A stretch of DNA of 64,000 nucleotides. Source: Opitutales bacterium (lineage in GTDB: Bacteria > Verrucomicrobiota > Verrucomicrobiia > Opitutales > Coraliomargaritaceae). The notes beneath the pieces were generated by a model. It did not search any database and was not told the origin of the DNA. It was given only the letters and a program-made list of their open reading frames with translations. Positions 3,324 to 23,930 of this stretch are shown here, piece after piece; positions within the stretch are counted from its first letter, which is position 1, and every line of letters starts with the position of its first letter. Where the stretch lies: the NCBI GenBank assembly GCA_030729385.1, contig JANQXM010000047.1, positions 1 through 64,000 on the forward strand, read 5' to 3'. A program made the translations under genes and the position numbers.

Positions 3324-6300
3324 TTAAAATAGGTAGATAAATTCTTTGCGGTTCATCATGACGTGACAGAGCTCTTGCCACACAGCGACTTCATTGACGT
3401 CGCCATTTTCCTGATAGATACGAGTCACATCACGAACCAATCCTTGAGCCCAGGCGATCTCGGTCTCATCTGCTGGGCGACTGAGTGCGACTTCATGCAT
3501 ATGGTTAATGCGTGCAACCTCGTCCGACTCGGACTTGAGTAGTTCTGCAGCCCACGCCTTTGCCTGCTGCTGGGTAAACTCAGCGTTCATGAGCGCGAGC
3601 GACTGCGCTGGAACATTCGTTACATTACGTGCACCAGTCGGCTCGACGCCATTAGGCATACCGAGAATCCGCAGGAATGAAGGCATGAAATTGCGCCTCA
3701 GCTCCATGTAGATAGAACGGCGTCCCTTGCCATCAACTGGGCCAGACCCAGGAAATCCGCGCGCTCTCGGCAAATCATCAATATAGGAACGAACACTCGG
3801 TCCGTAGATTTCCCCGTTCAACTTACCGCTAACTAACAGCACGTGGTCGCGAATCTGCTCTGCTTCTAAACGCTTCACCGGCATACGTTGTAAATACAAA
3901 TTGTCAGGATCGAGAGCCAATGCCTGATCATTCGGAAGAGTCGACATCTGATAAGTGGAAGTCAGCACCATCTTGCGTATCATCTGCTTAATCGACCAGC
4001 CCTGTGCCATGAAATCTTTCGCTAAGTAATCGAGCAACTCAGGGTGAGTTGGCAAAGTGCCTAGCTCACCAAGATCGTCGATCGATGAAACGATGCCGCG
4101 ACCAAAGACATGGTGCCACAGACGATTCACCATCACGCGAGAAACAAGCGGGTTGGATTCATCGACTAGATGATCTGCAAACTCGCGACGACCGCTTTCA
4201 TTGGACGGAAGCAATTCTCCACCCAGCGCATCCATAAAGCGGCGCGGATTCGGCTCCTTACTTAAATTCTTATGACTGCCTCGGATATAGATCGGTTCAT
4301 CCTGCGGGGTGCCCTCAGTTAAACTTCGCGCATAAACTGGCTGCGGGATCTCATTGTTGATCTCTCGGTAGCGTGCCATCAAAGACTTTAGTTTTTCGTT
4401 ACGATCAGTGCCTGCACGGACAAGCCCTGACTCAAACAAGCCTGACAAGAGAACAGCGCCTTCCGGCGTGAGCTTACGATTCCTTCCATCCTGCACGACT
4501 TGCTTCACGACATCGGCGACATTGCGATCTTTCCAAAGCTGCGACCAATCAGGCAGCGTAGGGTTAGTCGAAATCGAAACGAAGTTATCATCCGCATTTT
4601 GACGATGCGAAGCTCTTAGTCGCCGAGCCTCCCCGTCCTGTAGCACCTCGATGTATGCGGATAAGCCTACCCAAAGTTCTGTTTTAATCGAGATGCGCTC
4701 CCATGCGCCCTCATTGACAGCGACAGATAGAATCTTCGTGGTCGGACCAAAGCCTGCTTGTTCATAATTGCGAACGATCAAATTAACGCGGGCATTCTTG
4801 CCTCGAGCATAGAGCTCGACGGGGCGACCGTCCAAAACAAAATCTGGACTACGAAGACTACCGGAAATCCTGCCACTATAAGTGCCTGCAGAAGGGTTGG
4901 ATAAATCGACCAGCGTTTGCACCACATTCTGGTCATTTGCGACGGACAATATCATATCCGAACCAGCACCCTGCTCCATCTCACTAAAGCCCAACCCCGT
5001 GGTCATCCATTGACCTAAATCTGTTGGATAATATGGAGCAATCGGAGCCAGTGGCCTGGCTAGCTTCGGAGCTTTTTCGCTGTCACCGACGATCGCATGA
5101 TAAATCGGATCCAGTTGCGGCCATTTCTTGCGATGCTTCGGAATCGTGAAATAGCGCAACCAAGATTCTAGAACGGTTGCATCCAGTTTACGTTGTGATG
5201 CCTCTTCTTGAATGACTGCGACCACATCTTTATCCAATTTAGGAGCCGGAGCCTTCCTGTCTTTCGCCTGCTCAGCCCATGTATTTTTGAGTTTCTGAAA
5301 CTCAGCGCTCTCACTGATCTTTCGAGTCGCTAGCGCGTATTCACTCATGTTGGCGATATCCACAGCGGCATCGGCCATCGCTGCGGCGTAAACAGCGGGC
5401 TTACCTTGCTTTAATTTAGACTGGGGCAGTAATTGCTTCGCCTCGGCCACGGTGTTGGAAACATCCAAGCGCGAACTGCGAAGCATGCCATACCACGAAT
5501 AGTAGTCGCCTGTAGTGATCGCATCAAACTTGTGGTCATGGCAACGCGCACAGGCCACCGTCATACCGAGGAAGGCCTTACTCGTGGCATCGATCATTCC
5601 ACTAAAGATGCGGGCTTCATCTTCGTGCAGGTCTGGAGGACCATGCTGTCCATCGGTCAGGTAAAAGAAACCAGGACCTTTGAGTGATTCATTGATCGTG
5701 CCACTCTCATCGTAACGTGGCTCATCCACTAAATCGCCAGCGAAAGACTCACGGACAAATTGGTCATATGGTAGATCTTCGTTGAAAGCGCGAATCAGAT
5801 AGTTCCGATACTGGTGCGCATGCGGCATTAGGTAATCGAACTCAAAAGATTTGGTCTCAGCATAACGCACAGCATCCATCCAATGCCGTGCCCATTTCTC
5901 ACCAAAATGCGGAGATGCCAAAAGTCGATCTATTTGCTTCGCATAGGCATCGGGCGACTCGTCCGCGAGATACGCGTCCATCTCTTCCGGAGTCGGCGCC
6001 AAACCAATTAAGTCGAAACTCAAGCGGCGTAACAAATGCCTCTTTGAAGATTCCGGAGCAGGCTTCCAGCTCTTCTGATCCAGTTCGGCTAATATAAAAT
6101 TATCGTAAGCATTGCTGGGCCAACTCGGATCGCTGACTACCGGAGCATCATAATCCTTGATCGGCTGAAACGACCACCATTGCTTGCGCTCCTCAAGGTC
6201 GAACTCATCAACATTCTTCAGCTCCCCGATCTCCTGATTCCGCGGGTCAAATGCGCCCTCGTTGATCCACTTTGCAAAGTCCGCAATCTGCTCATCCTTA

Positions 6301-6620
6301 AGCTTCGATTTCGGCGGCATCGCTTCGTAGCTAGGGTCATGACGGATCATGTGCATAAACAGACTGTTCTCCGCATCGCCCGGCACAATCACTTGACCAG
6401 TATCGCCACCACGCATCCAACCGGCTTTCGAATCCAAAAGTAAGCCTCCTTTTAGTTTCTCGGAATCCTCCGCATGACACTCATAGCAACTCTCAATTAA
6501 GACCGGACGAATCTTCGCTTCGAAGAATGTCAACTGATCAGGTGTGAGCGCAGCAACATCCTCCGCATTCATTGAGAGCGGTAGCAACAACAGCAGTGTA
6601 GCAAAGGTAGGGCGTAACAT
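3324..6620 (-). CDS. PSD1 / planctomycete cytochrome c domain protein (DUF1549/DUF1553)
   Basis: CYECHA and CARCHDH heme/Cys motifs; HWMDAVRYAET, NRLWHHVFGRGIV, MPVKRLEAEQIRDHVLLVSGKLN. Start moved to ATG 6620 (MLRPTFATLLLLLPLSMNA signal peptide); ORF track starts at 6665. Confidence 0.92.
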   Translation of the reverse strand: MLRPTFATLLLLLPLSMNAEDVAALTPDQLTFFEAKIRPVLIESCYECHAEDSEKLKGGLLLDSKAGWMRGGDTGQVIVPGDAENSLFMHMIRHDPSYEAMPPKSKLKDEQIADFAKWINEGAFDPRNQEIGELKNVDEFDLEERKQWWSFQPIKDYDAPVVSDPSWPSNAYDNFILAELDQKSWKPAPESSKRHLLRRLSFDLIGLAPTPEEMDAYLADESPDAYAKQIDRLLASPHFGEKWARHWMDAVRYAETKSFEFDYLMPHAHQYRNYLIRAFNEDLPYDQFVRESFAGDLVDEPRYDESGTINESLKGPGFFYLTDGQHGPPDLHEDEARIFSGMIDATSKAFLGMTVACARCHDHKFDAITTGDYYSWYGMLRSSRLDVSNTVAEAKQLLPQSKLKQGKPAVYAAAMADAAVDIANMSEYALATRKISESAEFQKLKNTWAEQAKDRKAPAPKLDKDVVAVIQEEASQRKLDATVLESWLRYFTIPKHRKKWPQLDPIYHAIVGDSEKAPKLARPLAPIAPYYPTDLGQWMTTGLGFSEMEQGAGSDMILSVANDQNVVQTLVDLSNPSAGTYSGRISGSLRSPDFVLDGRPVELYARGKNARVNLIVRNYEQAGFGPTTKILSVAVNEGAWERISIKTELWVGLSAYIEVLQDGEARRLRASHRQNADDNFVSISTNPTLPDWSQLWKDRNVADVVKQVVQDGRNRKLTPEGAVLLSGLFESGLVRAGTDRNEKLKSLMARYREINNEIPQPVYARSLTEGTPQDEPIYIRGSHKNLSKEPNPRRFMDALGGELLPSNESGRREFADHLVDESNPLVSRVMVNRLWHHVFGRGIVSSIDDLGELGTLPTHPELLDYLAKDFMAQGWSIKQMIRKMVLTSTYQMSTLPNDQALALDPDNLYLQRMPVKRLEAEQIRDHVLLVSGKLNGEIYGPSVRSYIDDLPRARGFPGSGPVDGKGRRSIYMELRRNFMPSFLRILGMPNGVEPTGARNVTNVPAQSLALMNAEFTQQQAKAWAAELLKSESDEVARINHMHEVALSRPADETEIAWAQGLVRDVTRIYQENGDVNEVAVWQELCHVMMNRKEFIYLF

Positions 6621-6840
6621 TTTGATTGGGTAAGAAATATGGAGGCAAGTGGAATGAAGAACCAAAACTGGGGAGATTCAAATCTATCGCAAAGATAACA
6701 CATCTATTGCACAAATACCTCCACTCTTCGCGCTAAAAACTGATACTATTTCCGAATATTTCCCACAAATAACCACATAAAAGCGTGGCGATACTATCAT
6801 AAATACATAAATCTAGCGGCATATTGCATTCACAAAATCT

Positions 6841-8673: not shown

Positions 8674-11600
8674 CTAAGATAAAATCACTTGCAGACGCTG
8701 GCCACTGTTGATCATAAGGTCCGTGTTGAACTTCAATGTATAAGCGTTTGCATCAGAGATGAAAACTGCGCTGACAGGCTTTCCATCCAATTCGACCTTC
8801 GCACCGGAAGCAGAGACACCGCTCACTTTATCAAGCGAGAATTCCTTAAGCTGCAGTCGTCCGTAGCCCAGCTGGATACCAGCAACATGTTGACCTGAAG
8901 CAACCTTCTGAGTGAAACGGCCCCAACCTTCAGCTGCAGTAAACGCAGCACGGAAATCGTCAGGCGTGATACGCGGTCCAAAAGCCAACTTGCCCTCAGG
9001 TCCATCATAGCGATATCCGCATGCCGCGATGTAAGCGCCGTAGCTGGCCATGGCACGTGAGTAGTGATCAGAGCATTCGATCTCGTTATAAGGATTTCGT
9101 TTATCTGGGGTGTAACGATCGTAGATCGCTTTACCGATAGCTAAGCCTTCTTCCAGCATACCTTCCCATATCATGTGCGCGGCAACTTGCCATTCGAATC
9201 CTGTCATGCACTCGTTGAGATATCCTGCGTAGCTTGGCTTACCGCTCTTCGGTTCAATCTTTCCATTCGGGAAGCTGCACATCACTAGACCAGCGTCGCC
9301 TGCGGCGGCATACCAGCGGCCATTCGTCATGGCTTTGCGGAACGCACCCACATCCGGCGTGAAATTATATTTCCAAAGCGCTTGTAGCGACTTCTTGATT
9401 TTATCTTTCGGCAAGATTGGATCGATGCCGACATTTGGCAGCCAGGAATCACCAAGTATTTGATCAATGTGACAGCCATTTGTGGAGCCGTGCATTTGCG
9501 TTTCGTCATCAGGAGCCTTATGAATAAAGTAACCGAATTCTTCGTTCCACAATAGGTCGACCATAGCAGGCGCACCCTTTTTGACGATGCCTTCATAGCG
9601 CTCAGCCACAGCAGGCTGTTTCATCTGACGAGCCATCACCGCAGAGGCTTTGAGAGATGCATGATAAAGATTAATCAACCAATGCACCTGACCATACCAC
9701 GGTTCATCCAGTGTGTTATGCTGCGCACCGGCTAACATGCCGTCTTCATCCCGATCCCACTTTTGGATCACATGATCCATGGAGAGCTTCACTCGATCCC
9801 AAATGCTTTCGAGAAAGCTGTAGTCAGTCGTCATCTGACTCTCACGCAGCACACGTAGAATCGTCCCGCAGTTGCCATCGATCGCATCACCAAAACGGTC
9901 CGCGAAGTGACGGTGGCGGATACTTCCATTCTGGGGATCGAAACCGCGGTCATATTCGACTTTGTCGCGACACTCGCGCTCAATCTCTGGGAAAATACGC
10001 GCCAGCCCTTGAGCATAGTGCCAGACGTGCGTGCAATTACCGGGACAGCATTTTACGCCTTCGTCGAAATCATAAAAGTTATCTCCCTCTCCTACAGCCA
10101 AGCGCTGGCCCATTTGAGTTTGCACACAATCCAGAGTGAGGAATGTGCGTTCTAGAAACCAGTGCGGTAGCGTGGAGTCATACCAAGTATCGACCCATGT
10201 TTGTGTCGCGCGATGCAGCTCAGTCTCTTTCTGGGCTACTGTTGCTGCGGCAGACGCAGCGGTAGGCCAAAGCGTGGCGTAATGATTCTTGGCCAGACTA
10301 CCGGGTATACGACCGAAACGCTTGCTATAGACAACATTGGGGAAACGCCACGACAAGGTAAAGGCGACCGTTTTTGACTCGCCAGGTTTCAAGGCGAGTT
10401 TGCTTCCAAGAGAAGCATAAGCGGGTTCGTTCATCGCACGCGAATGAGACGCCCCACTTTCCGGCACATCACCCGATTGAAAAATATCCGCATGCCCTGG
10501 AACGCTTCGAGCAAGATCAACCATGGTTGGACTTTCGTCACCCAATAGTCCGAGTGCAATCGCTCCGTAATCGGCGGCAAGCTTTAGCTTTGAAGATTCA
10601 TTCGAACCACCTGGATGACTTGAAAACTCAATTTGATCGACCTCGATGTGTCCCCAACCACCGCTAGCTTGATCGTTGATTTCGATGTGCGCCTTTTTGC
10701 CAGTAAAAGATTCCACGTCCCAGGTCGCCCATTCCATATTATCAGAGTCCTTCCCGGTCGTCGATCGCACCAGTTTGCCATCAATCCACAGGCTGACGGT
10801 GAGCGCTTCCTTATCGTTTCCACCACCCATTAAGAAATTGATGTATGGCTTGTTAATGTTAAAGGTCGGTGAAGTTAATTTACCAGTCGGCTTGTCACTT
10901 CTAGCGTAAGAATTGGCGACACTCTTTCCGCGGACACCCGTCAACTTCTGGCCACCGCTTTTACCAGAAGGGCGTTTGCCGAAAGCAGCGCCCTCGACTT
11001 TCCATCCCTTATAATTATTGCCTTCAAAATCAGCAAAAACTTCGACATCGGCATCCGAGCGACCATCCCCAAAACTGGTAGAGCACTCAACTGACGAAAT
11101 GCCCTCAAGTTGTCGATACGCGGCAAGCTTGTTGTCAGTAGCACCCTTCCTAGATTTTGCATTCGAGATATTCTCGATCCATCCCGCCACATCAACTTCT
11201 TGATCGGTCGAGCTTGAATTCGAAACCTTGTATCGCATGACGATCACAGGGTAGCTGGAATCATCACGATTGAGGGGAATAAATGGCGTGTAGGCTTGGA
11301 GCTGAACATCTACCGGACAGGTCGAATCGGAATAGTCGACCGTCGCCATTGGGTATTGATTCGTAAAAGTGACATTAGAGAAACCTTTTGAATCAAGCGT
11401 GTAGGTTTTTCCACTCACCTGCAGCGCGAAGCCTTGGCTCATAGGAGAATGCGCAACATCAGGCTTAAGATAGCGTGGTCCTTTACCTGTATTCTTCGCA
11501 TCAAAAGCTCCATCCAAATTCCAATGCCAGAGCTGCCCATCACCACCGAGATAAACCTGCCCGGTGCAGATACCATTAATCGGCATACCGATGTATTTCA

Positions 11601-11841
11601 GATCGGCACCCGTAGCCGTGAGCGCCTGCCCACGCGCATAGAGACTTTTAATCCAATCCGCGCTCAGCTTCTTATCGGCGGGTATGATCTTATCAAAGTC
11701 CGCGGCGGAGAATGGGCCCGCCATGACATTGATGCGACTCGCCATGAGCATCGCGGCAGTGAGACCACCTGCTCGAAGGAAATCGCGTCGACCTAATTTC
11801 AAATGACCGTAGTCGTGAGTTGAAGTGCTGTTTGTTCTCAT
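8674..11841 (-). CDS. GH116/DUF608 beta-glycosidase-like protein, Tat-exported, with inserted beta-sandwich domain
   Basis: Tat motif GRRDFLRAGG; GMPINGICTGQVYLGGDG; DEGVKCCPGNCTHVWHYAQ; QHNTLDEPWYGQVHWL; internal insertion FADFEGNNYKGWKVEG...GGWGHIEVDQIEF. Confidence 0.88.
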   Translation of the reverse strand: MRTNSTSTHDYGHLKLGRRDFLRAGGLTAAMLMASRINVMAGPFSAADFDKIIPADKKLSADWIKSLYARGQALTATGADLKYIGMPINGICTGQVYLGGDGQLWHWNLDGAFDAKNTGKGPRYLKPDVAHSPMSQGFALQVSGKTYTLDSKGFSNVTFTNQYPMATVDYSDSTCPVDVQLQAYTPFIPLNRDDSSYPVIVMRYKVSNSSSTDQEVDVAGWIENISNAKSRKGATDNKLAAYRQLEGISSVECSTSFGDGRSDADVEVFADFEGNNYKGWKVEGAAFGKRPSGKSGGQKLTGVRGKSVANSYARSDKPTGKLTSPTFNINKPYINFLMGGGNDKEALTVSLWIDGKLVRSTTGKDSDNMEWATWDVESFTGKKAHIEINDQASGGWGHIEVDQIEFSSHPGGSNESSKLKLAADYGAIALGLLGDESPTMVDLARSVPGHADIFQSGDVPESGASHSRAMNEPAYASLGSKLALKPGESKTVAFTLSWRFPNVVYSKRFGRIPGSLAKNHYATLWPTAASAAATVAQKETELHRATQTWVDTWYDSTLPHWFLERTFLTLDCVQTQMGQRLAVGEGDNFYDFDEGVKCCPGNCTHVWHYAQGLARIFPEIERECRDKVEYDRGFDPQNGSIRHRHFADRFGDAIDGNCGTILRVLRESQMTTDYSFLESIWDRVKLSMDHVIQKWDRDEDGMLAGAQHNTLDEPWYGQVHWLINLYHASLKASAVMARQMKQPAVAERYEGIVKKGAPAMVDLLWNEEFGYFIHKAPDDETQMHGSTNGCHIDQILGDSWLPNVGIDPILPKDKIKKSLQALWKYNFTPDVGAFRKAMTNGRWYAAAGDAGLVMCSFPNGKIEPKSGKPSYAGYLNECMTGFEWQVAAHMIWEGMLEEGLAIGKAIYDRYTPDKRNPYNEIECSDHYSRAMASYGAYIAACGYRYDGPEGKLAFGPRITPDDFRAAFTAAEGWGRFTQKVASGQHVAGIQLGYGRLQLKEFSLDKVSGVSASGAKVELDGKPVSAVFISDANAYTLKFNTDLMINSGQRLQVILS

Positions 11842-11874: not shown

Positions 11875-13254
11875 TTAAAGCTCTCGCTTCGTTAGAGTTT
11901 TCGCATCGGCCTGATAGCCTGCAGGGCGACTGTTCTTTGCTAGATTGGTCTCAAATGCGGCGACGTAAGCTTGTAGTTGCTCTGCGATTTCAGGATGTGA
12001 TTTTAGAACGTTGACCTTCTCCCCAATATCTTCGTCCAAATTATACAAGGCAGCCTTTTTACCTAAGTGTAACTTCCATTCCCCGGAACGAACTGCTGTA
12101 AGTGTGTTGGCGTTGAAGTAGAAAAAGGCCTCATGCGGTGTCACGCCCCCCTGAGCGAGAACTGGCAGAATATCTTTACCGTCAATTACGCGGTCGGACG
12201 GAAGCTCCGCTCCGGCAAGCTTAGCGAAAGTCGGCAAGAGATCCATTGCCGTCATTAAGGTGCTGTTTGACTGCCCAGCGGGAATGCCGGCAGGCCAGCG
12301 AATCACAGTCGGCACGCGCTGCCCACCTTCAAAGACGGAACCCTTGCCGCCACTAAGCGGTTTAGCTTTTCCGAGTTTGGGCCCATTGTCCGAGGAAAAA
12401 ATCACAATTGTATTTTCATCTACACCGTTCGCTTTTAAGGCATCCAGAATCTGCCCGACCGACCAATCGATTTCACCAATGACCTGGTTGTATAGCTTAT
12501 CTCGTGTTTTGTAATCAACGCCCTCCTCATTTTTCAATTTCGCTTGGATCGCGTCTGAGACGTCGACCATGAAAGGCGGTGACATGTGAATTGGTCGGTG
12601 CGGAACTGGGTGAGGCACATAGAGGAAAAACGGTTCGTCTTTATGGCGCTCGATAAAGTCTACCGCACGTTCAGTAATGCGCTTCGTCAAATAATCGGCA
12701 TCCGGCTCCTCTTCGATCACCGTCTCCATTTCCATTAGTGGTAGCGGTGGGAATTTATACTTTTTATCATTACCATGGTAAGGATGGATGTCATGACTAT
12801 ATGGCAAGCCGAAGAACTCATCGAATCCCTGACGTGTGGGAAGGAACTCCAGTTGATCGCCCAAGTGCCATTTACCAAACATACCGGTAGCATAACCCGC
12901 TGACTTCAACACTTCAGCAATCGTTATTTCATCCGAATTCAAACCATTCTTATCGCCAGCTAAGAAGACCCCTCCAGCTAAGCCGACACGTTTCGGATAA
13001 CTACCTGTCATCAATGCCGCACGTGATGGCGTGCACACATTACCCGCGACATAAAAGCTAGTTAGTTTCGCGCCCTCCTTCGCCATCTGGTCGATCCGAG
13101 GTGTCTTCACATGATCACCTCCAAAACAACCAAGATCTGCATACCCCTGATCATCAGTGAAGATGATCACAAAGTTTGGTTTAGTCGCAGCGTTGCACAC
13201 AGACGTCAACAAGAGTGTCAGCAACAGGGCTTTGATTCTACAAACGATTTTCAT
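11875..13254 (-). CDS. Arylsulfatase-type sulfatase (S1 family, Cys-type)
   Basis: FTDDQGYADLGCFGG, formylglycine motif CTPSRAALMTGSYPKR, GKWHLGD; signal peptide. Confidence 0.95.
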   Translation of the reverse strand: MKIVCRIKALLLTLLLTSVCNAATKPNFVIIFTDDQGYADLGCFGGDHVKTPRIDQMAKEGAKLTSFYVAGNVCTPSRAALMTGSYPKRVGLAGGVFLAGDKNGLNSDEITIAEVLKSAGYATGMFGKWHLGDQLEFLPTRQGFDEFFGLPYSHDIHPYHGNDKKYKFPPLPLMEMETVIEEEPDADYLTKRITERAVDFIERHKDEPFFLYVPHPVPHRPIHMSPPFMVDVSDAIQAKLKNEEGVDYKTRDKLYNQVIGEIDWSVGQILDALKANGVDENTIVIFSSDNGPKLGKAKPLSGGKGSVFEGGQRVPTVIRWPAGIPAGQSNSTLMTAMDLLPTFAKLAGAELPSDRVIDGKDILPVLAQGGVTPHEAFFYFNANTLTAVRSGEWKLHLGKKAALYNLDEDIGEKVNVLKSHPEIAEQLQAYVAAFETNLAKNSRPAGYQADAKTLTKREL

Positions 13255-13317: not shown

Positions 13318-15948
13318 CTAAGTGAGCAGTATTTTTAAACGTTGCCCCCTGTTGATGGTGATACCGGAGTCAAAGGTGATTACATAACGATCAGCTTCGA
13401 CATTCAAAGATGCATTCACCGCTTTGTCTGCGAGTTCAACCCCGACCTTCGTCGCAGAAACCCCACTGACTTCATCGAGTGAAAGTTCTTTGAGTTGTAA
13501 ACGACCGTAGAGAATTTCGATGGCGGACATATGTTCCCCATTTTTAACCTTCTGACCAAAGCGCCCCCATCCTTCTGCTGCAGTAAAGGCAGCGTGAAAG
13601 TCCTCGGGGTTCAATTTAGGACCGAAGCCGAGCTTGGCTTCCGGGCCGTCATAACGATAGCCACAGGCAGCGAGATAGGTGCCATAGCTGGCCATCGCGC
13701 GTGAGTAGTGGTCAGAACATTCTATCTCGTTGTAAGGGTTACGCTTATCGGCAGCATAACGATCGTGGATCGCTTTACCGATCGCCATCGGCTCTTCGAC
13801 CATGCCTTCACGAAGCATGTGCGCGGCGACTTGCCACTCGAAGCCGGTCATACACTCGTTGAGATAGCCTGCGTAATTCTTATTGCCGCTCTTCGGTTCC
13901 ACCTTACCGAATGGGAAACTTGTCATCACTAATCCTGCATCCCCTGGGCCTGCATACCAGCGACCGTTGGTCATGACCTTACGGAAAGCCGCGACATCGG
14001 GAGTGAAGTTATACTTCCAAAGTGCCTGCAGCGCCTTGCGAGTTTTATCCCTCGGCAAGATCGGATCGAGACCGACTTCGTAGAGCCAACTATCTCCGAG
14101 CACTTGGTCAATATGACAGCCGTTGGTAGAACCGTGCATTTGAGTCTCATCGGCAGGCGGGATGTGAATGTAGTAACCGAAGTCTTCGTTCCAAAGTTCT
14201 TTCACCATCTTGGGTGCTCCCTTAGCGATGATCTTCTCGTATCGTTCGGCGACTGCGGACTGCTTCATCTGACGCGCCATCACTGCCGATGCTTTAAGAG
14301 CCGCGTGATAGACGTTGATCAACCAGTGGACTTTACCATGCCATGGCTCGTCGAGTGTGTTGTGCTGTGCACCAGATAGAATGCCATCTTCGTCCACATC
14401 CCATTCCTTGATGACATAGTCCATTGAAAGCTTCACGCGATCCCAGATACTAGCCAGGAAGCTGTAGTCCGTCGTCATCTGGCTCTCGCGCAGCACACGC
14501 ATGATGGTGCCACAAGTGCCGTCGAGCGCATCGTCGCGACCGTCTTTGCCTTCCTGCATGGTATAACGGAAGTATACCATACCATTCTTATCATCAAAGC
14601 CATGGCCATACTCGATTCGGTCGCGGCATTCGCGTTCGATCTCGGGGAAGATACGCGCCAAGCCTTGAGCGTAGTTCCAGACGTGCGTGCAATTCCCTGG
14701 GCAGCAGCGAACGCCCTCCTCCATATTATAAATATCTTCGTCGGCACCCTGAGGGATGACACGTTGCACAGTCTGCGTTTGCATGCAGTCGATAGGAATA
14801 AAAGCGCGTTCTAAGAACCAATACGGCAAACTCGAGTCATACCAATTATCGACCCACTGCTTGGTCGTGCCGTAGAGCTCAGCTTCGCGACTCGCCACCT
14901 GAGCACTCGCTTCGGCAGCACTCGGCCATTGTGTCGCATAGTGGTAACGCCCGGAAGCTGTCTTGTTTCCAAAACCGGTTCCGTATTTAACGACAGGAAA
15001 ACGCCAGGAAACGGCAAAAGATACCGTCTGGGATTCGCCCGGATTCAGAGTCAATTTACGACCAATTGAAGCAGCACTCGTCTTTCCTTTTGTCGCCTTG
15101 TTTTCTGAGTTAAATACTCCTTCAAAGCCCGGTGTGGTCTTGTTCACGTCAACGAAATCAGGTGTTTCACCACCAAAGATGCCGAGTGCCATGCCATTAC
15201 CATCTTTACCTACACCAGAACACTCAACGGTCGCTATATCTTTTAGATGGCGATAGACGCTTACTTTATCGCCATTACCTGCCCACATATTATCAATCCA
15301 ACCAGCGATGGCGACCTCTTGAGTCTTCGATGAGCTGTTCGTCACAGTGTAACGCATGACAACCACCGGGTAGCTCGACTCATCTCGGTTCAACGGAATG
15401 AATGGTGTGTAAGCTTCAAGCTGCACATCTACAGGGCAGTTCGCATCAACAAAGTCCACCAGTGCCATCGGATACTGGTTGGTGAAAGTAACATCATCAA
15501 AGCCCTGCGAATTCAATGAATGGGTTTGACCATTTACTTGTAACGCGAAGCCCTGTCCAGCCGGAGCTTTTGCCTCATCCGGTTTCATATAGCGAAGACC
15601 TTTCGGGTTGTTCAATTTGTCTTTCTTCGCAGTCAAATTCCAATACCAAAGCTCCCCATCGCCACTTAGGTAGACTTGTCCGGTGCCGACGCCATTAATA
15701 GGCATGCCAATAAAATCCTTTGCGCCAGCCTTCGCAGTAAGCGGCTTACCACGAGCATAGAGGCTTTTAATCCAATCCGCACTCAGCTTCTTGTCGGCTG
15801 GTATGATCTTGTCAAAATCCGCAGCGCTGAATGGACCTGCCATCACATTTATTCGGCTAGCCATCAGCATCGCTGCAGTCAGACCAGAGGCTTTGAGGAA
15901 GTCACGGCGTCCCGTCAGGACATTACTTTTAGATTCAGAATTATTCAT
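13318..15948 (-). CDS. GH116/DUF608 beta-glycosidase-like protein, Tat-exported, paralog without insertion
   Basis: Colinear with 8674..11841; EEGVRCCPGNCTHVWNYAQ, QHNTLDEPWHGKVHWL. Start at ATG 15948 (MNNSESKSNVLTGRRDFLK) avoids overlap with the upstream gene. Confidence 0.9.
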   Translation of the reverse strand: MNNSESKSNVLTGRRDFLKASGLTAAMLMASRINVMAGPFSAADFDKIIPADKKLSADWIKSLYARGKPLTAKAGAKDFIGMPINGVGTGQVYLSGDGELWYWNLTAKKDKLNNPKGLRYMKPDEAKAPAGQGFALQVNGQTHSLNSQGFDDVTFTNQYPMALVDFVDANCPVDVQLEAYTPFIPLNRDESSYPVVVMRYTVTNSSSKTQEVAIAGWIDNMWAGNGDKVSVYRHLKDIATVECSGVGKDGNGMALGIFGGETPDFVDVNKTTPGFEGVFNSENKATKGKTSAASIGRKLTLNPGESQTVSFAVSWRFPVVKYGTGFGNKTASGRYHYATQWPSAAEASAQVASREAELYGTTKQWVDNWYDSSLPYWFLERAFIPIDCMQTQTVQRVIPQGADEDIYNMEEGVRCCPGNCTHVWNYAQGLARIFPEIERECRDRIEYGHGFDDKNGMVYFRYTMQEGKDGRDDALDGTCGTIMRVLRESQMTTDYSFLASIWDRVKLSMDYVIKEWDVDEDGILSGAQHNTLDEPWHGKVHWLINVYHAALKASAVMARQMKQSAVAERYEKIIAKGAPKMVKELWNEDFGYYIHIPPADETQMHGSTNGCHIDQVLGDSWLYEVGLDPILPRDKTRKALQALWKYNFTPDVAAFRKVMTNGRWYAGPGDAGLVMTSFPFGKVEPKSGNKNYAGYLNECMTGFEWQVAAHMLREGMVEEPMAIGKAIHDRYAADKRNPYNEIECSDHYSRAMASYGTYLAACGYRYDGPEAKLGFGPKLNPEDFHAAFTAAEGWGRFGQKVKNGEHMSAIEILYGRLQLKELSLDEVSGVSATKVGVELADKAVNASLNVEADRYVITFDSGITINRGQRLKILLT

Positions 15949-15952
15949 AAGA

Positions 15953-18900
15953 CTAAGCTGTTTGAACTTGGATATCAAGTTGCTGATCAGCCTTAAGCAT
16001 AACAGGACTTTGGAATGTGAGACGCAAATCGCTACCGTTGGTATCGAGCTTTGCCGCGACAGTCCGACCTCCCAGCTTCACTTGCGCGGACTTGGCTTCT
16101 TTGCCTTCAGCAGCTTGAAGAATCACTTGATTCAAGCTGACTTTACCTTCAGCGATATTGAGCGATGCCGTGAGTTGGCTTGCGCTGCGTTTTTGCGAGT
16201 AGAGGCCATAACCTTCAGCTGCCGTATAGAAACTTGAGTGCTCTTCCGGAGTGAGGATCGGACGGAACGCGATAACACCTTTCGGGCCATCGTAATGGAA
16301 GCCCTGAAGTGCAAGTAGTGCGGACCAGACGCTGAGCGAACGGCCATAGAATTTACCGCACTCGTCGTCGCCGAAAGGATTACCGGAATAGCCCCATGGA
16401 CCGTTTCTCACTTTGGAGACACCCTCGGTGCGAAGGCGTCCGTTATAGCGATCGTAAATGATCTTCATCACCATGAGACCTTCTTTCAGCAGACCATTTT
16501 GAATCAAGGCCACTGCAGCACTGTATTCGAAACCAGTCATCACCTCATCGCCGTATTTCATCCCGGGGATCGGTTGCGGATCTCTGGGCCATGTGATCAT
16601 CTTCATGCCACCGTCGGCGACTTCGCAATACTGGCGCGGCTTGAGTGAGTGACCTTGGAAGTCGGTCAGGAAGTTGTATTTCAATAATGACTCCATCGCC
16701 TTGCGGGAGCGCTCCTTCGGATAACAACGGTCGATATCAAGCTGGTCGGCCCACCACTCCCCGAGGATCTGATCGATATGGCAACCATCGAGATAGTCCT
16801 GGCTACGCTTCTTACCCTGTTTTTGAATGTAGTATTCACCATTCCAGAGGCGTTCGTTTTGAAGCTTCTTACCGGACTCACGGATTTTGCGCCATTCAAC
16901 AGCCTTGGCTAAATCGCCCACAATGTCGGCCATACGTGCAGCTGCTTCGAGCGCAGCCAAATACATGCTACCGATCCATGAAGAGCAGCCCATAAAGTCA
17001 CCATCCAAAGTATTGTGCTGAGTCGTTTCCATGAAGCCGTCACGGCTCGGATTCCAGTAGCCGATACTCCAGTCCATGCCTTTTTTCACCAGCGACCATT
17101 GAGACTTCAGCCAGTTTTCATCTGCAGAACAAAGGTGCTCACGGTAAGTATTTAAAATAGTGCCATAGAAACCATCTGCTGCCCCACTCTTGTTGGTATG
17201 ACGATACGGAGTCAGCCCTTTTGGTGTTTGACGCTCGTAGTCCTGCTCACGCATGAGTCGCCCCATTTCTGGAAGTAGCCGCGCATGCGATTGGGCATAA
17301 TGATAAACGTGGGTGCAATTACCACCACAGCATCCCGCGGTTTCATTACAACCTTCCCACATGCCGAGGTAACCATTCGAAGACCACCAGAAAGTTTGGC
17401 TGCGCAAGACCGCAAGCTGTGAGCTCATCCGATCGAGCAACCAAACCGGCATTGTGGATGCATAGAGTGTCTTATGGAAGCGACGCGTGCGCGCCGTAAG
17501 ATCTTCGAGATTGTCTTTCAGATAGCCCGCAAGATCCATCGCATTCGGCCACCAGTTGGTGTAGTTCTGTCCTTCTCCGCTCCAGCCGACACTGTTCGAG
17601 CGCCCTTCGCCTTCCAAGGCGATCGATTTACCTGATCCGTGTTTACCCGCGGTAAAATACCAAGCCAGCACAAAGGTGACGGACTTGGACTCACCAGGAG
17701 CCAGTCCCAAGGGCGCTAAGAGCGCTCCGTTCACAGACTTCCCAGCTGGCGAAGCACCCGTCTTGTTGGGCCCTTGCAATTTGCGAGCAATATCAACTGC
17801 GCGATGTAACACATTGGTCGTGCCCCAGTCTGTCGCAGCGGTCGCGCCTACGGCATCAGTCATCAAGACCATGTCAGCGTTGTTAATGCCGTCACGAGTC
17901 ATATGAATGAGCGTCGTGTCACCACTCTTTAAAAGTTCATTCTGATTCTTACCAAAATTGTTACCGCCTTTGCCTTCGTTAAATCCGAGCGCATTTTTCT
18001 GCGCGGACAGAACATCGACCATCACCTTAGAGCTAGAAGTATTCTTCGCAGTAACGGTGTAAATCGCGCAAGGGATCGCACAGGCTTTCAAGTCCATTGG
18101 GATGAAAGGATTGAAGACTTCCATCTCTACCTCGATCGGTAATGTGGACTCCTCAAAGCGATACTTTGCAAAAGGATACTCACCCTCAAATTTTAGTGAC
18201 GACATCGCAGCGAACGGACCAACCGACTCGGTCTGTAAAGCACGCACGATAGACTCACCGCCTTCAGCTTGTGCGCGGATTGCGAGGAAACTATCGTCCA
18301 CGCGACGTTCTTCGTAGTCACAGCCAATCTGCCAAATAGCAGGCTCGGCTTTACCGTTGAACTGAATCGCACCCGCACCGATGCCACCGACCATAAAGTT
18401 AATCGCCTCTAGGCGCTCACCTTCATAGACAGTCGTTTTACCGTGTCCGATCAGGTCGGGGTCATTCAGCATCGCTTGAGCCTTTGCCTCACGAGTCGCA
18501 TCACGTTTTGCTAAAACAGCCGCCACTAAGGCACCCTCTTGTTTCAGTTTTTTCTGCCAGTCAGAACCAGCAGCTTTAATGTGCCCTTGAATCTCAGCCT
18601 GTGTGAGTCCACGTGCATAGCAGGCGACTTCGTCGAGCGAAATATTAGTCGAACTCCAACCGTTTGGAACAGGCGTGCTGCCCAGCGTCATGGTGGTTTT
18701 CTTGGGCCCCTTGCGTGTATACTCATACGCACCACCGACCAAACTACATTCATAGCCATCGATGTAGGCGCGCACATCGAGGTCGAAACTTGTAAGTGCG
18801 AAATGATACCAACGCCCTACTTCAATTGGCTGATCCGTCGGCAGGTTGATCTCAGTAACCACCATGCCGTTGTTATTCTGATAAAGCAGCGTGGATAAAT

Positions 18901-19369
18901 CGTTTTTAACACCGATCACATACAGCGCGGACTTGCCTGTGCTTTGCGCGATGATGACAGGGTTACCGTCACCAGTTGGCTTGGAATCGATCTTGAAGAA
19001 AAGCTCCAATGTCGTAGAGCGGCCCTTAAGCTGATCGGCATTCGCCACAAGAATGGGCGAGTTGGGTTCGAGGCTGATCGCCTTGCCCTCAATTGCTCCA
19101 TCTACAAACGAAGATGCACCTTTGCTCGTTGCCTTCGATTTACCGAGCATGTCGACCAGATCTCCATCAAAACGCCAGTAGCCTCTCAAGGATGGATCCG
19201 ACTTCAAAACAGCGGCATAAGACTCACGGCTCCCCGCTGCCATCAATGGTGCAGCAGCGATACCAGCGGCAAAAGTTCCAGCAGCCACTAAAAAACGGCG
19301 GCGAGATATATCCGGCGAAAAGCTCGAAGCCGCTATATCGTATGAGGTAGAGGTGGGTAAATTCTTCAT
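15953..19369 (-). CDS. LamG/concanavalin-like domain fused to GH116/DUF608 protein, Tat-exported
   Basis: SRRRFLVAAGTFAAG Tat signal; LRGYWRFDGDLVDMLGKS...MTLGSTPVPNGWSSTNISLDEVACYARGLTQAEIQGH LamG; NETAGCCGGNCTHVYHYAQ and QHNTLDGDFMGCSSWIGSMYLAALEAAARMA GH116-like. Confidence 0.88.
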   Translation of the reverse strand: MKNLPTSTSYDIAASSFSPDISRRRFLVAAGTFAAGIAAAPLMAAGSRESYAAVLKSDPSLRGYWRFDGDLVDMLGKSKATSKGASSFVDGAIEGKAISLEPNSPILVANADQLKGRSTTLELFFKIDSKPTGDGNPVIIAQSTGKSALYVIGVKNDLSTLLYQNNNGMVVTEINLPTDQPIEVGRWYHFALTSFDLDVRAYIDGYECSLVGGAYEYTRKGPKKTTMTLGSTPVPNGWSSTNISLDEVACYARGLTQAEIQGHIKAAGSDWQKKLKQEGALVAAVLAKRDATREAKAQAMLNDPDLIGHGKTTVYEGERLEAINFMVGGIGAGAIQFNGKAEPAIWQIGCDYEERRVDDSFLAIRAQAEGGESIVRALQTESVGPFAAMSSLKFEGEYPFAKYRFEESTLPIEVEMEVFNPFIPMDLKACAIPCAIYTVTAKNTSSSKVMVDVLSAQKNALGFNEGKGGNNFGKNQNELLKSGDTTLIHMTRDGINNADMVLMTDAVGATAATDWGTTNVLHRAVDIARKLQGPNKTGASPAGKSVNGALLAPLGLAPGESKSVTFVLAWYFTAGKHGSGKSIALEGEGRSNSVGWSGEGQNYTNWWPNAMDLAGYLKDNLEDLTARTRRFHKTLYASTMPVWLLDRMSSQLAVLRSQTFWWSSNGYLGMWEGCNETAGCCGGNCTHVYHYAQSHARLLPEMGRLMREQDYERQTPKGLTPYRHTNKSGAADGFYGTILNTYREHLCSADENWLKSQWSLVKKGMDWSIGYWNPSRDGFMETTQHNTLDGDFMGCSSWIGSMYLAALEAAARMADIVGDLAKAVEWRKIRESGKKLQNERLWNGEYYIQKQGKKRSQDYLDGCHIDQILGEWWADQLDIDRCYPKERSRKAMESLLKYNFLTDFQGHSLKPRQYCEVADGGMKMITWPRDPQPIPGMKYGDEVMTGFEYSAAVALIQNGLLKEGLMVMKIIYDRYNGRLRTEGVSKVRNGPWGYSGNPFGDDECGKFYGRSLSVWSALLALQGFHYDGPKGVIAFRPILTPEEHSSFYTAAEGYGLYSQKRSASQLTASLNIAEGKVSLNQVILQAAEGKEAKSAQVKLGGRTVAAKLDTNGSDLRLTFQSPVMLKADQQLDIQVQTA

Positions 19370-19418: not shown

Positions 19419-20414
19419 CTATTTCTCAGACCACTCAGCGTCCCAACGTTGAATGTAAGGAAGCCCCTTCCCCTTTGGTGCGTATTGCAGCTCCACCCCC
19501 CAGTCGATATGCTCGCCAAGGCCATTATCAGTGAAGGCTTCTGGACGGCAACCACCGGCACCAATTGGACCACCCTTTACGGTATGCGTCTTTATGAAAT
19601 TGAAACCATCTTCTGAATAGAGAATCGAATTTGTGATATTCTTGGGACCTGTCGTTCCAATCATCGCAGCCACTCCTTCACCCTTTGGCCAAACGATGAC
19701 TTCATGGTTCCCTTGGATAATTGGATTGTTCTCATACTTCACATAAGGCCCTTCAGGCTTATCCGCGATAGCCACCCCCATCTTGGTTTGAGCAGGACTC
19801 TTCCGCTGCTGGCGACCTTTGTAGTAGAGCCAATACTTACCATCTCGAACGACTAAGCAGGCATCATCAATCAAATGGCTGTCAAATTGAGCAGGATCAT
19901 CGCTGTTAATCAAAGCGGGATTGGTAGCTAGACGCTCCCATGGACCATCTGGTGAGTCCGACACGGCAATACCGATTTTGGAATCAGGATTGAAAGGCTT
20001 TTTGTAAAAGTCATTCGACGTGCCAGTGTAAAATAACCAGTAGCGACCTTCCGCTACGAGAATGTTTGGAGTAAAGACACTCGCGCCTTCCCATGTGCCG
20101 GGCTCGCCTTTTGATAGCGCCATGCCCTCCTCCGTCCAATCGAGTCCGTCATGAGAAGTGGCATACCACACAGTGGCATCGTAGCCCGGAGCAATCGGTC
20201 CCTTAGAATACCAGACATAGTAGAGGTCATTTACTTTAATAACGTCACTCGGATCACGGCGCATAACGCCCGGCTCCAAGCCAATCCCTGAAAGTTCCGT
20301 ATACGTAATACCCACGGTGCCGAGTTTCGGAGCCTTTGCATTTGCTTGAACTGGCGTCGTTGCCAATGCGAATAGAGCGAGTGAGCTCAATGCTTTGAAT
20401 ATATTGATTTTCAT
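19419..20414 (-). CDS. Secreted five-bladed beta-propeller glycoside hydrolase (GH43/GH117-like)
   Basis: RRDPSDVIKVNDLYYVWYSKGP, YDATVWYATSHDGLDWTEEG, FDSHLIDDACLVVRDGKYWLYYKGRQ; signal peptide. Confidence 0.75.
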   Translation of the reverse strand: MKINIFKALSSLALFALATTPVQANAKAPKLGTVGITYTELSGIGLEPGVMRRDPSDVIKVNDLYYVWYSKGPIAPGYDATVWYATSHDGLDWTEEGMALSKGEPGTWEGASVFTPNILVAEGRYWLFYTGTSNDFYKKPFNPDSKIGIAVSDSPDGPWERLATNPALINSDDPAQFDSHLIDDACLVVRDGKYWLYYKGRQQRKSPAQTKMGVAIADKPEGPYVKYENNPIIQGNHEVIVWPKGEGVAAMIGTTGPKNITNSILYSEDGFNFIKTHTVKGGPIGAGGCRPEAFTDNGLGEHIDWGVELQYAPKGKGLPYIQRWDAEWSEK

Positions 20415-20443
20415 AAGTATCTTATAGAATGATTATCGATTGT

Positions 20444-22918
20444 TTAAATGATTTTTGACTGCCCTGCCTGGAGAGTGATCAGCTCGCTAAGTTGATCTTC
20501 ATGGTAAACTCGGAATTTAGTATCCCGCGTCGCACGGATTGTAGCTTTCTTAAGCTGACCATCTTTCCACTCAATATCGACCTCAAGACCACCACGTGCC
20601 CGCAAACCTTTCACGGAGCCACTTGCCCAAGCAGATGGCAATGCTGGCAGTAGATGCAGTATGTAAGGAGCATTCATCAACTCTTTGGTTGGCGGCACTG
20701 GAATGAAAACATTCGGACGTTTTGGGTCTTCCTTGTATGCAACAAACGCGGCCTCTTGAATGGTCTTTGCATCCTGATCGACGCTACGCAAATGACTCTG
20801 CAAAAGCATTTCGCAAACACCTGAGACACCGCCGAAGTTGCCATCAATCTGGAATGGTGGGTGAAAATCGAAGAGATTGATGTAAGCACGCTTCGCGGTC
20901 AAAAACTTTACAAACTGATGCGCCTTGTCACCGTTGTGGAGACGTGCCCAGAAGTTAGTCTTCCAACCAGTGCTCCAACCAGTGGATTGATCGCCACGAT
21001 GCTTCATGGTGACGAGTGCTGCGTCGGCCAGCTTGGGAGTGGTCAGTGGTGAAAAATCGCGACCTGGATGAAGCGCCATGAGATGCGAGATATGGCGGTG
21101 TGTATTATTAGGCTCATCCCAATCTTCTGGCCACTCCTGCACTTGACCATGCTGACCAATACGCTGTGGGCTGAGTTGCGGGATTAGCTCCATCAATTTT
21201 GCGCGAAGCTCTGCGTCGCGATCGAGAATCACAGTGGTTTCAATCACATCGGTAAATAGATTCAGCACCATCTGCTGATCCCAAGAGGCGCCCCAAGTCT
21301 GTTTGTTCAGCTTGCCGTGTTGCTTGGTCAGGTAAAAGTTCTCAGGAGACCAAGTCGGATACACGACCAGTGAACCATCTTTGTAAGGCGCAAGAAACTC
21401 AGCAAAGAATTCCGCAGCCCCTTTCATAATCGGATACGCTTCTTCGAGGAATGCTTTATCACCTCCAAAAGCATAGTGCTCGAAGAGATGTTGGGTCAGC
21501 CAATGCCCTGCCTGCTGCGCACGACGGCCATGTTCGTTCTGTGCGGTAAAGCCAAACAAATTACCATTCAGACCCATGCTCCAGCCCTTTTCGATGCCGA
21601 AGGTTTCGCGGGCAGTATGCTTACCGGACTCTGCAATCACCTTCATATACTCCATGTAAGGTGCAAACGACTCAGGTAAATTGGCAGTCTCCACCATCCA
21701 GTAATTCATCGCTAGATTGATATCGGTATGGTAGTCGCAGTTCCAAGGTGGCTTCAGCTCCGAATTCCAGAGGCCTTGCAAATTAGATGGCACTGGTGCG
21801 CCCCGAGAACAACTAAACTGGAGATAGCGAGAGTAGTTCATATAGAGGTTTTCCAGCTCGATACTGCTCCCTTCCTTCAAGAGCTTATCTGTCGGCAACC
21901 CCGAAGGCTTATAATCGAGATTCAGTTGAAATCGATCCGTCAGTGTTTTGATGTCTGAGACATGAAGCTGCTTTAGTTCGTCGTATCCAAGGGCAACCGC
22001 CTGCTGCATGATTTCAGCAGAATCGCCTTCGTAATCGCGCCCCTTGAAACTAGGATAAACTGGAAGGTAATCATTATAACCAGCGACATAGATCATGACT
22101 TCGCTGGCCCCTGACACTTTAATCGAGCCATCTGCTTGAGCGACCACTTTACCGCCGACCGCATCGACATTGACCAATTGCAGGAACTCGACCGGATCAT
22201 TCGTCATTTGAGCCGAACCCTTGAGACGAATCTGATTTCCTTTCGATGCAACAGAATGATTTTTATGTGCCGTCTTAGCTGCAATTGTTAAGTTCAGCTG
22301 ACCACCTTCAGCGGTATAACGAGCGGCAAATACATCCTGCGGATAACTGACAAAATATTCCCGAGTATAACTCGCGCCTCCGAACTCGTAACTGACAGAG
22401 CCAAGTCCTGTTGAAGTATCGAGTGCACGCACATAATTTTCCGCACCTTTCATATCATGACCAGTGAGAATTTCTAAATCCACAAAAGGTGCATAGTTGC
22501 CGAGCTTCTGTTCTGTCGCATGATACTTAGTCGAAATTGACTCCATGCTGCCTTCTTTGGTGCCGTATTTACCCTCTCGATACGCTTGGCGCACTGTGTC
22601 GAGATGTTCGCCTGCTCCAATGCGCGTGCTGGATTGCTCGACCTCGCTGAGCCCACGATGCGTATTCATCCATAGTGTGATATCGTTAAATACCAAATAC
22701 TCGCGATCGACACCACCCGAGAACATTGCACCCAAGCGACCGTTCCCCATAGGAAGTGCTTCCGTGATATACTTCTTACCAGTCGGTGCCCTCTTAGCAA
22801 TATCCCGGTCTATGTCCGTCGTCGCGGGCTGATTGTAGAATAGTGTGTGCTGCGCTTGAGCGCCTACGAGGATAACCAAAAATGAGGCAATCGAGATAAG
22901 GGGGCATTTGAACTTCAT
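20444..22918 (-). CDS. Glycoside hydrolase family 95 (alpha-L-fucosidase / alpha-L-galactosidase-like)
   Basis: [97 protein letters not shown]. Confidence 0.93.
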
Positions 22919-22958
22919 GAATATATAATTTTTGAATTAGGCAGTAAAAGTGTGGGGT

Positions 22959-23930
22959 TTAATCTTGGATTTCGAAACGTTGGATGAATGGAAGAAAGCC
23001 TTTTTCTTTGCCGATGTGGACGCCCCATTCGATTTGGGAACCTGCACCATTATCCGTAAACGCTTCTGGACGATAAGCGCCAGACGCATGGGGGACGTTG
23101 ATCACATTATGGGTTTTCTTAAAGTGGATACCGTCATCCGAATAGACGAGAGATTTCACCCAATCTTTAGGACCGACAGTGCCAATCAAAGCGGCCACGC
23201 CATCGCCTTCTGGCCAGACGAGCACTTCGTGGTTTCCTGGAATGATTGGGCTATTCGGATGCTTGATGTAGGGACCCTCCGGTTTATCGGCGATCGCGAG
23301 GCCCAGTTGTGTCTGCGAAGGGCTTTTGCCCAATTGACGACCTTTGTAATATAACCAGTATTTGCCCTCACGTTTGATCAGGCAAGAATCGTCAATTAAA
23401 TGACTATCAAATTCAGCAGGATTATCGCTGTTAATCAAAGCGGGATTCGTCGCCAAGCGCTCCCACGGTCCATCAGGCGAGTCCGACACAGCAATACCAA
23501 TTTTTGAGTCTGGCTTCACTTTTGGGTTTTTAGAAATCCCCGTATAGAACAACCAATACTTCCCCTCAGCCACGAGTATACTTGGAGTAAAAACACTAGC
23601 CTCATCCCATACGCCGCTACCCGCTTCACCTTTTGGTAGTGCCATGCCCTTTTCGGTCCATACATGACTATCCTCAGAAGTCGCATACCATACAGTGGCA
23701 TCGTAACCACTCGACTTAGGACCTTTTGAATACCAGACGTAATACAAGTCGCCGACCTTGATAACATCACTCGGATCCCGACGCATAACTCCTTTTTCTG
23801 CACCAATGCCTTCCGCATTTGAAAAAGTAATGCTTACTTCGGGATAGGCTTCGCTCATGCTTACAATGGGGGCTGTCAATAAGCCAAGAAGCGCAATATA
23901 GAGAACGCTGCGGGATAGTGTTATTTTCAT
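22959..23930 (-). CDS. Secreted five-bladed beta-propeller glycoside hydrolase (GH43/GH117-like), paralog of 19419..20414
   Basis: RRDPSDVIKVGDLYYVWYSKGPKSSGYDATVWYATSED; FDSHLIDDSCLIKREGKYWLYYKGRQ. Confidence 0.75.
   Translation of the reverse strand: MKITLSRSVLYIALLGLLTAPIVSMSEAYPEVSITFSNAEGIGAEKGVMRRDPSDVIKVGDLYYVWYSKGPKSSGYDATVWYATSEDSHVWTEKGMALPKGEAGSGVWDEASVFTPSILVAEGKYWLFYTGISKNPKVKPDSKIGIAVSDSPDGPWERLATNPALINSDNPAEFDSHLIDDSCLIKREGKYWLYYKGRQLGKSPSQTQLGLAIADKPEGPYIKHPNSPIIPGNHEVLVWPEGDGVAALIGTVGPKDWVKSLVYSDDGIHFKKTHNVINVPHASGAYRPEAFTDNGAGSQIEWGVHIGKEKGFLPFIQRFEIQD

Follow-up and report, generated by a model that had tools for sequence, protein, structure and literature searches.

A jelly-roll module inside a GH116 protein of an Opitutales bacterium is widespread among its relatives and was most likely lost from a neighbouring paralog

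The window analysed here, a stretch of 64,000 nucleotides from an Opitutales bacterium, has three neighbouring GH116 genes (A, B and C), all on the minus strand. Protein A carries within its N-terminal domain an inserted jelly-roll module of 139 residues that is ancient and common in this GH116 group, and not an unusual insertion in A. We consider it likely that this is a CBM-like accessory module, so far uncatalogued, that is old in the group, was lost in B and helps to hold glycan near the enzyme. The insertion itself is unsurprising, and the remaining interest lies in a module that stands outside the family libraries searched: host proteins of at least six types carry it, and yet it has neither a Pfam or NCBIfam model nor a solved structure.

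Protein A (8674..11841, minus strand; 1,055 aa; Pfam PF12215, E 1.4e-36, and PF04685, E 5.3e-35) passes the curated GH116 cut-offs, with 127.1 bits for PF12215 (cut-off 30.2) and 121.7 bits for PF04685 (cut-off 26.3). Paralog B (13318..15948, minus strand; 876 aa), identified by Pfam and by alignment with A, is 67% identical to A and colinear with it apart from one block in the N-terminal domain. The alignment confirmed the preliminary description in that both proteins run together up to VECS, after which A has the extra block; of the rejoining motif that had been quoted for both, GA[IL]ALG, only A has a matching sequence (GAIALGLLGDE), since B reads GMALGIFGGE. The module proper extends over 10624..11040 (minus strand; aa 268-406 of A), inside the interval 10590-11050 proposed for the insert. 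It is preceded by a linker (11041..11070, minus strand; aa 258-267) equivalent to the ...RPDI linker of the relatives, and followed by a second one (10570..10623, minus strand; aa 407-424) that includes a helix at 415-421 in the full-length model and leads into the strand GAIALGLLG of the GH116 N-domain, both delimited by junction alignment. Counting the linkers, about 170 residues of A are absent from B, and the module profile had no match in the B open reading frame. Paralog C (15953..19369, minus strand; 1,138 aa; PF13385, E 1.2e-13, and PF04685, E 6.6e-39) also lacks the module and has instead an N-terminal LamG-like domain.

A 141-position profile spans the module end to end (E 4.6e-59 for the module of A). 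AlphaFold2 prediction of the module alone, from an alignment of 64 sequences, gave a separate fold of ten strands with pLDDT 95.0 and pTM 0.90, while in the model of full-length A (pLDDT 89.4, pTM 0.86) strands 248-256 and 427-433 of the N-terminal sandwich flank the module. The two models together bear out the proposal of an independent beta-sandwich within the N-terminal domain. In Foldseek searches against the PDB the nearest structures were the cleaved-adhesin domain of lys-gingipain (Kgp), MAM, CBM35, CBM4-2, CBM29 and CBM61, and the neighbours also included a porphyran-binding CBM (8xmz; TM 0.64/0.69, rmsd 3.4). CBM35/4/29/61, 8xmz, cleaved-adhesin and MAM share the jelly-roll topology of the module (TMq about 0.5-0.65), but just some 10-18% sequence identity. 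Compared with the ortholog in genome G010, the 139 codons of the module show purifying selection (dN/dS about 0.11); the conserved residues of the module are W17, D127 and W133, as well as D8, E10 and D139. Scans of the insert with Pfam and NCBIfam returned no family; on other members of the module Pfam gave scattered weak matches, the best being MAM at 0.0019 in one of them. Against PDB chains the profile had no match below E 0.02, and the insert sequence alone was also without a convincing solved chain. Literature searches turned up no paper that names or describes the module. Phage records had no match to the module, and a phage origin was rejected on that ground.

The preliminary description had taken the domain to be peculiar to one paralog and its internal position to be unusual; the relatives support neither view. 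With B as the query, the 384 genomes searched in this class gave many proteins, 1000-1130 aa long, in which the alignment breaks at the same point, and the module profile matched 58 of 81 GH116 open reading frames. Once fragments are set aside, 55 of the 77 relatives have the module internally, one has it N-terminally and 21 are without it. This is largely the outcome under which the insert had been expected to be reinterpreted as a loss in the other paralog. The insertion site is the same throughout the junction-aligned subset, where the module is often preceded by a ...RPDI linker and followed by ...DFGTMALALL, and this same-site occurrence rules out a gain in A alone. A wider alignment that includes C-type genes again has the module in the same loop, in some cases flanked by additional residues; two proteins, L142 and L158, aligned poorly there. 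In the GH116 proteins L044 (4195-4623), L171 and L174 the module was seen near the N-terminus rather than inside the N-domain. On a GH116 tree built from sequences with the module removed, its patchy absence takes at least seven changes on the starred branches.

Around the A/B pair the module is present in A and its ortholog in G010 (L006), and absent from B, from B's close relatives L040 and L041, and from L069; separately from B, the module is lacking in L069, L042, L043 and the L097/L098/L009 group. The approximate site of the lost module in B is 15175..15231 (minus strand; VECSGVGKDGNGMALG), as placed by junction alignment. Here B has a tight junction, whereas linker-like remnants persist in L069 and L042, which suggests separate losses. 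Judged from these sequences, B most likely lost the module, the direction of change at the A/B site being one that we infer. The tree count itself does not choose, as two losses in the L069/A/B group and one loss with a regain in A require equal steps. A regain would mean that the common ancestor of A, B and L069 lacked the module and that A took it up again at that position through recombination with a GH116 gene that carries it. Across 630 pairs the identity of the insert on average follows that of the core (mean difference -0.5, s.d. 6.9), but the insert of A is 52-53% identical to those of L045, L036 and L089 where the cores are only 39-40% identical, an excess of 13-14 points that speaks for regain, as does the raised synonymous similarity to the G010 ortholog at aa 277-476. 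In the insert tree, which is weakly resolved, the insert of A stands away from its core neighbours. We nevertheless favour losses and regard regain as distinctly improbable, because L069 and L042 keep linker remnants that B has not, because the flanking segments of A belong with its own clade, and because a regain would require the module alone to be swapped at the exact site. The flanks at aa 205-262 and 407-530 have 40-50% identity to L069/B against an average of 20-26% to others, and segment 407-530 groups with L069/B in a starred clade. Since both flanks are native, the import of a larger module-bearing segment into A was likewise rejected. Between A and L006, fourfold-site identity is 0.5-0.7 over aa ~277-476, a stretch that takes in the module, is raised again near 627-726 and is mostly 0.25-0.5 elsewhere; these raised tracts suggest mosaic exchange. 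A separate observation concerns L041, a B-type GH116 protein in a genome of another family of the class (G283): it is 78% identical to B of the window, which suggests horizontal transfer.

The history that we favour, that of an old module lost from B, would have begun when an autonomous jelly-roll unit of about 140 residues entered the N-terminal beta-sandwich of the ExoMA2-like subfamily 4 group long ago, to be mostly inherited with the GH116 group afterwards. The module occupies a surface hairpin that joins two strands, and for this reason the GH116 fold would tolerate its presence or absence. In the simplest account B arose by tandem duplication and then lost the module, as several other relatives would have done independently.

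The closest solved relative of A, both by sequence (E 5.6e-77) and as the top Foldseek match of the full-length model (E 3.1e-55, TMt 0.77), is ExoMA2 (PDB 8ic6), which has the same two-domain GH116 fold at about 23% identity. ExoMA2 is without the module (a stretch of about 250 residues in A corresponds to about 125 in ExoMA2), and it has no signal sequence (PMC10509167), whereas the N-terminus of A is twin-arginine-like (GRRDFLRAGG). Residues E431, D557, H446 and R483 of ExoMA2 are its catalytic and sugar-contact residues (PMC10509167); the numbering of the chain sequence appears to be offset by four from that paper. E431 corresponds to E594 of A (10060..10062, minus strand), the expected catalytic nucleophile, a match made through the WEG consensus of the family, as phmmer left this short stretch unaligned. 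D557 aligns with D712 of A (9706..9708, minus strand; HNTLD), the expected acid/base by the role given in PMC10509167. H446 and R483 correspond to H605 and R644. For R644, as for E594, the position was taken from the family alignment, since the pairwise comparison with ExoMA2 has gaps there. In an alignment of 53 relatives, B included, E594, D712 and R644 are invariant and H605 is nearly so. A thus carries the residues that mark the ExoMA2-like GH116 subfamily 4 and is predicted to be an enzyme of the exo-beta-D-arabinofuranosidase type. As the catalytic and sugar-contact residues are kept, A and B are probably both active enzymes of the ExoMA2 kind. The beta-glucosidase TxGH116 also shares the GH116 fold with A (Foldseek TMt about 0.7, about 15% identity), but its D452 and H507 are replaced by His and Arg in ExoMA2 and A (PMC10509167).

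The resemblance noted earlier to domains associated with GH32 enzymes and planctomycete PSD proteins was confirmed: a search with the module profile found relatives in GH32, PSCyt/PSD1 and other hosts, and Pfam scans agreed. Of 289 genomes sampled across the phylum, 51 have the module. Its hosts, named from their Pfam domains or from their likeness to representatives scanned with Pfam, include GH32, GH116, GH81C-like, DUF2961 (which we take to be the GH172 family), sulfatase, SASA esterase, PSCyt/PSD1, DUF7133 and HZS-alpha-like proteins; host counts are rough, resting on best-similarity assignment with 17 open reading frames unassigned, only some of which were later scanned. The GH32 enzymes L012, L129 and L038 belong to the same sequence family of the module (profile E 1e-46 to 1e-53). 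Unlike in A, the module is N-terminal in most GH32 hosts, followed in some by DUF4980. Internal positions are nevertheless found outside GH116. In the Catenovulum GH32 protein (L038) the module interrupts the catalytic propeller, residues 40-299 and 469-600 aligning to stretches of a GH32 comparison protein one residue apart; in the GH32 proteins L160 and L152 it is inside the propeller, as judged by position, and in L035 and L017 it lies between PSCyt2 and PSD1. The window itself has a weak, diverged match between these two domains (4632..5021, minus strand; whole-ORF E 5e-4, domain E 1.2e-3, among 118 window ORFs), inside a PSCyt1-PSCyt2-PSD1 protein at 3324-6665. Module relatives occur in Actinomycetes and Proteobacteria, contigs of Rhodothermota and Armatimonadota also carry the module, and plasmid-borne relatives were found in Streptomyces, Actinomyces, Arthrobacter and others.

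The module is a discrete fold attached to carbohydrate enzymes, as expected of a CBM, and it would probably bind glycan, keeping exported A near a polymeric or oligomeric substrate, while B, having no anchor, would act on the same substrates or on smaller ones, a presumed division of labour. MAM and cleaved-adhesin folds also bind proteins, and fold alone is no proof of sugar binding. The module could instead bind a protein or the cell surface, anchoring the enzyme or mediating oligomers, as the Kgp cleaved-adhesin and MAM domains among its nearest structural matches and the cytochrome or dehydrogenase-like nature of some hosts would allow; we hold this to be unlikely, since many fold neighbours are CBMs and many hosts are carbohydrate enzymes (GH32, GH116, GH81-like, GH172, esterase, sulfatase). 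Taken overall, most hosts are polysaccharide-active proteins or proteins of cytochrome type. A spacer of purely structural use, with no ligand, would agree with repeated loss that leaves no visible damage in the catalytic core, but it is very improbable given the use of the module in many different proteins at varied positions, and given that the loop residues W17, D127 and W133 are strongly kept across unrelated hosts. A narrower form of the glycan-binding reading is that the module founds an undescribed CBM family for D-furanosyl residues (beta-D-arabinofuranose/fructofuranose), repeatedly placed inside unrelated scaffolds. Its hosts do include the furanosidase families GH32, GH116 subfamily 4 and GH172, and the scaffolds that hold it (the GH116 sandwich, the GH32 propeller and PSCyt2-PSD1 proteins) are unrelated; to this proposal we give little credence. 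The occurrence of the module in GH81-like, sulfatase, esterase, DUF7133 and HZS-alpha-like proteins weakens a strict link to furanosidases. In A and B, nature offers a pair of enzymes with and without the module for comparison. To know what the module binds would help to annotate many unexplained proteins of planctomycete and verrucomicrobial type, including PSCyt/PSD1.

The GH43/GH32-like and GH95 genes probably form, together with the GH116 genes, a polysaccharide-utilisation cluster. As the neighbours of the GH116 genes are a sulfatase, a GH95 protein and two GH43/GH32-like proteins, the neighbourhood suggests a sulfated or fucosylated glycan. In the window the GH95 protein lies between the two GH43/GH32-like propeller proteins (19419-23930), and the sulfatase gene (11875-13254) separates A from B, whose orthologs are adjacent in G010.
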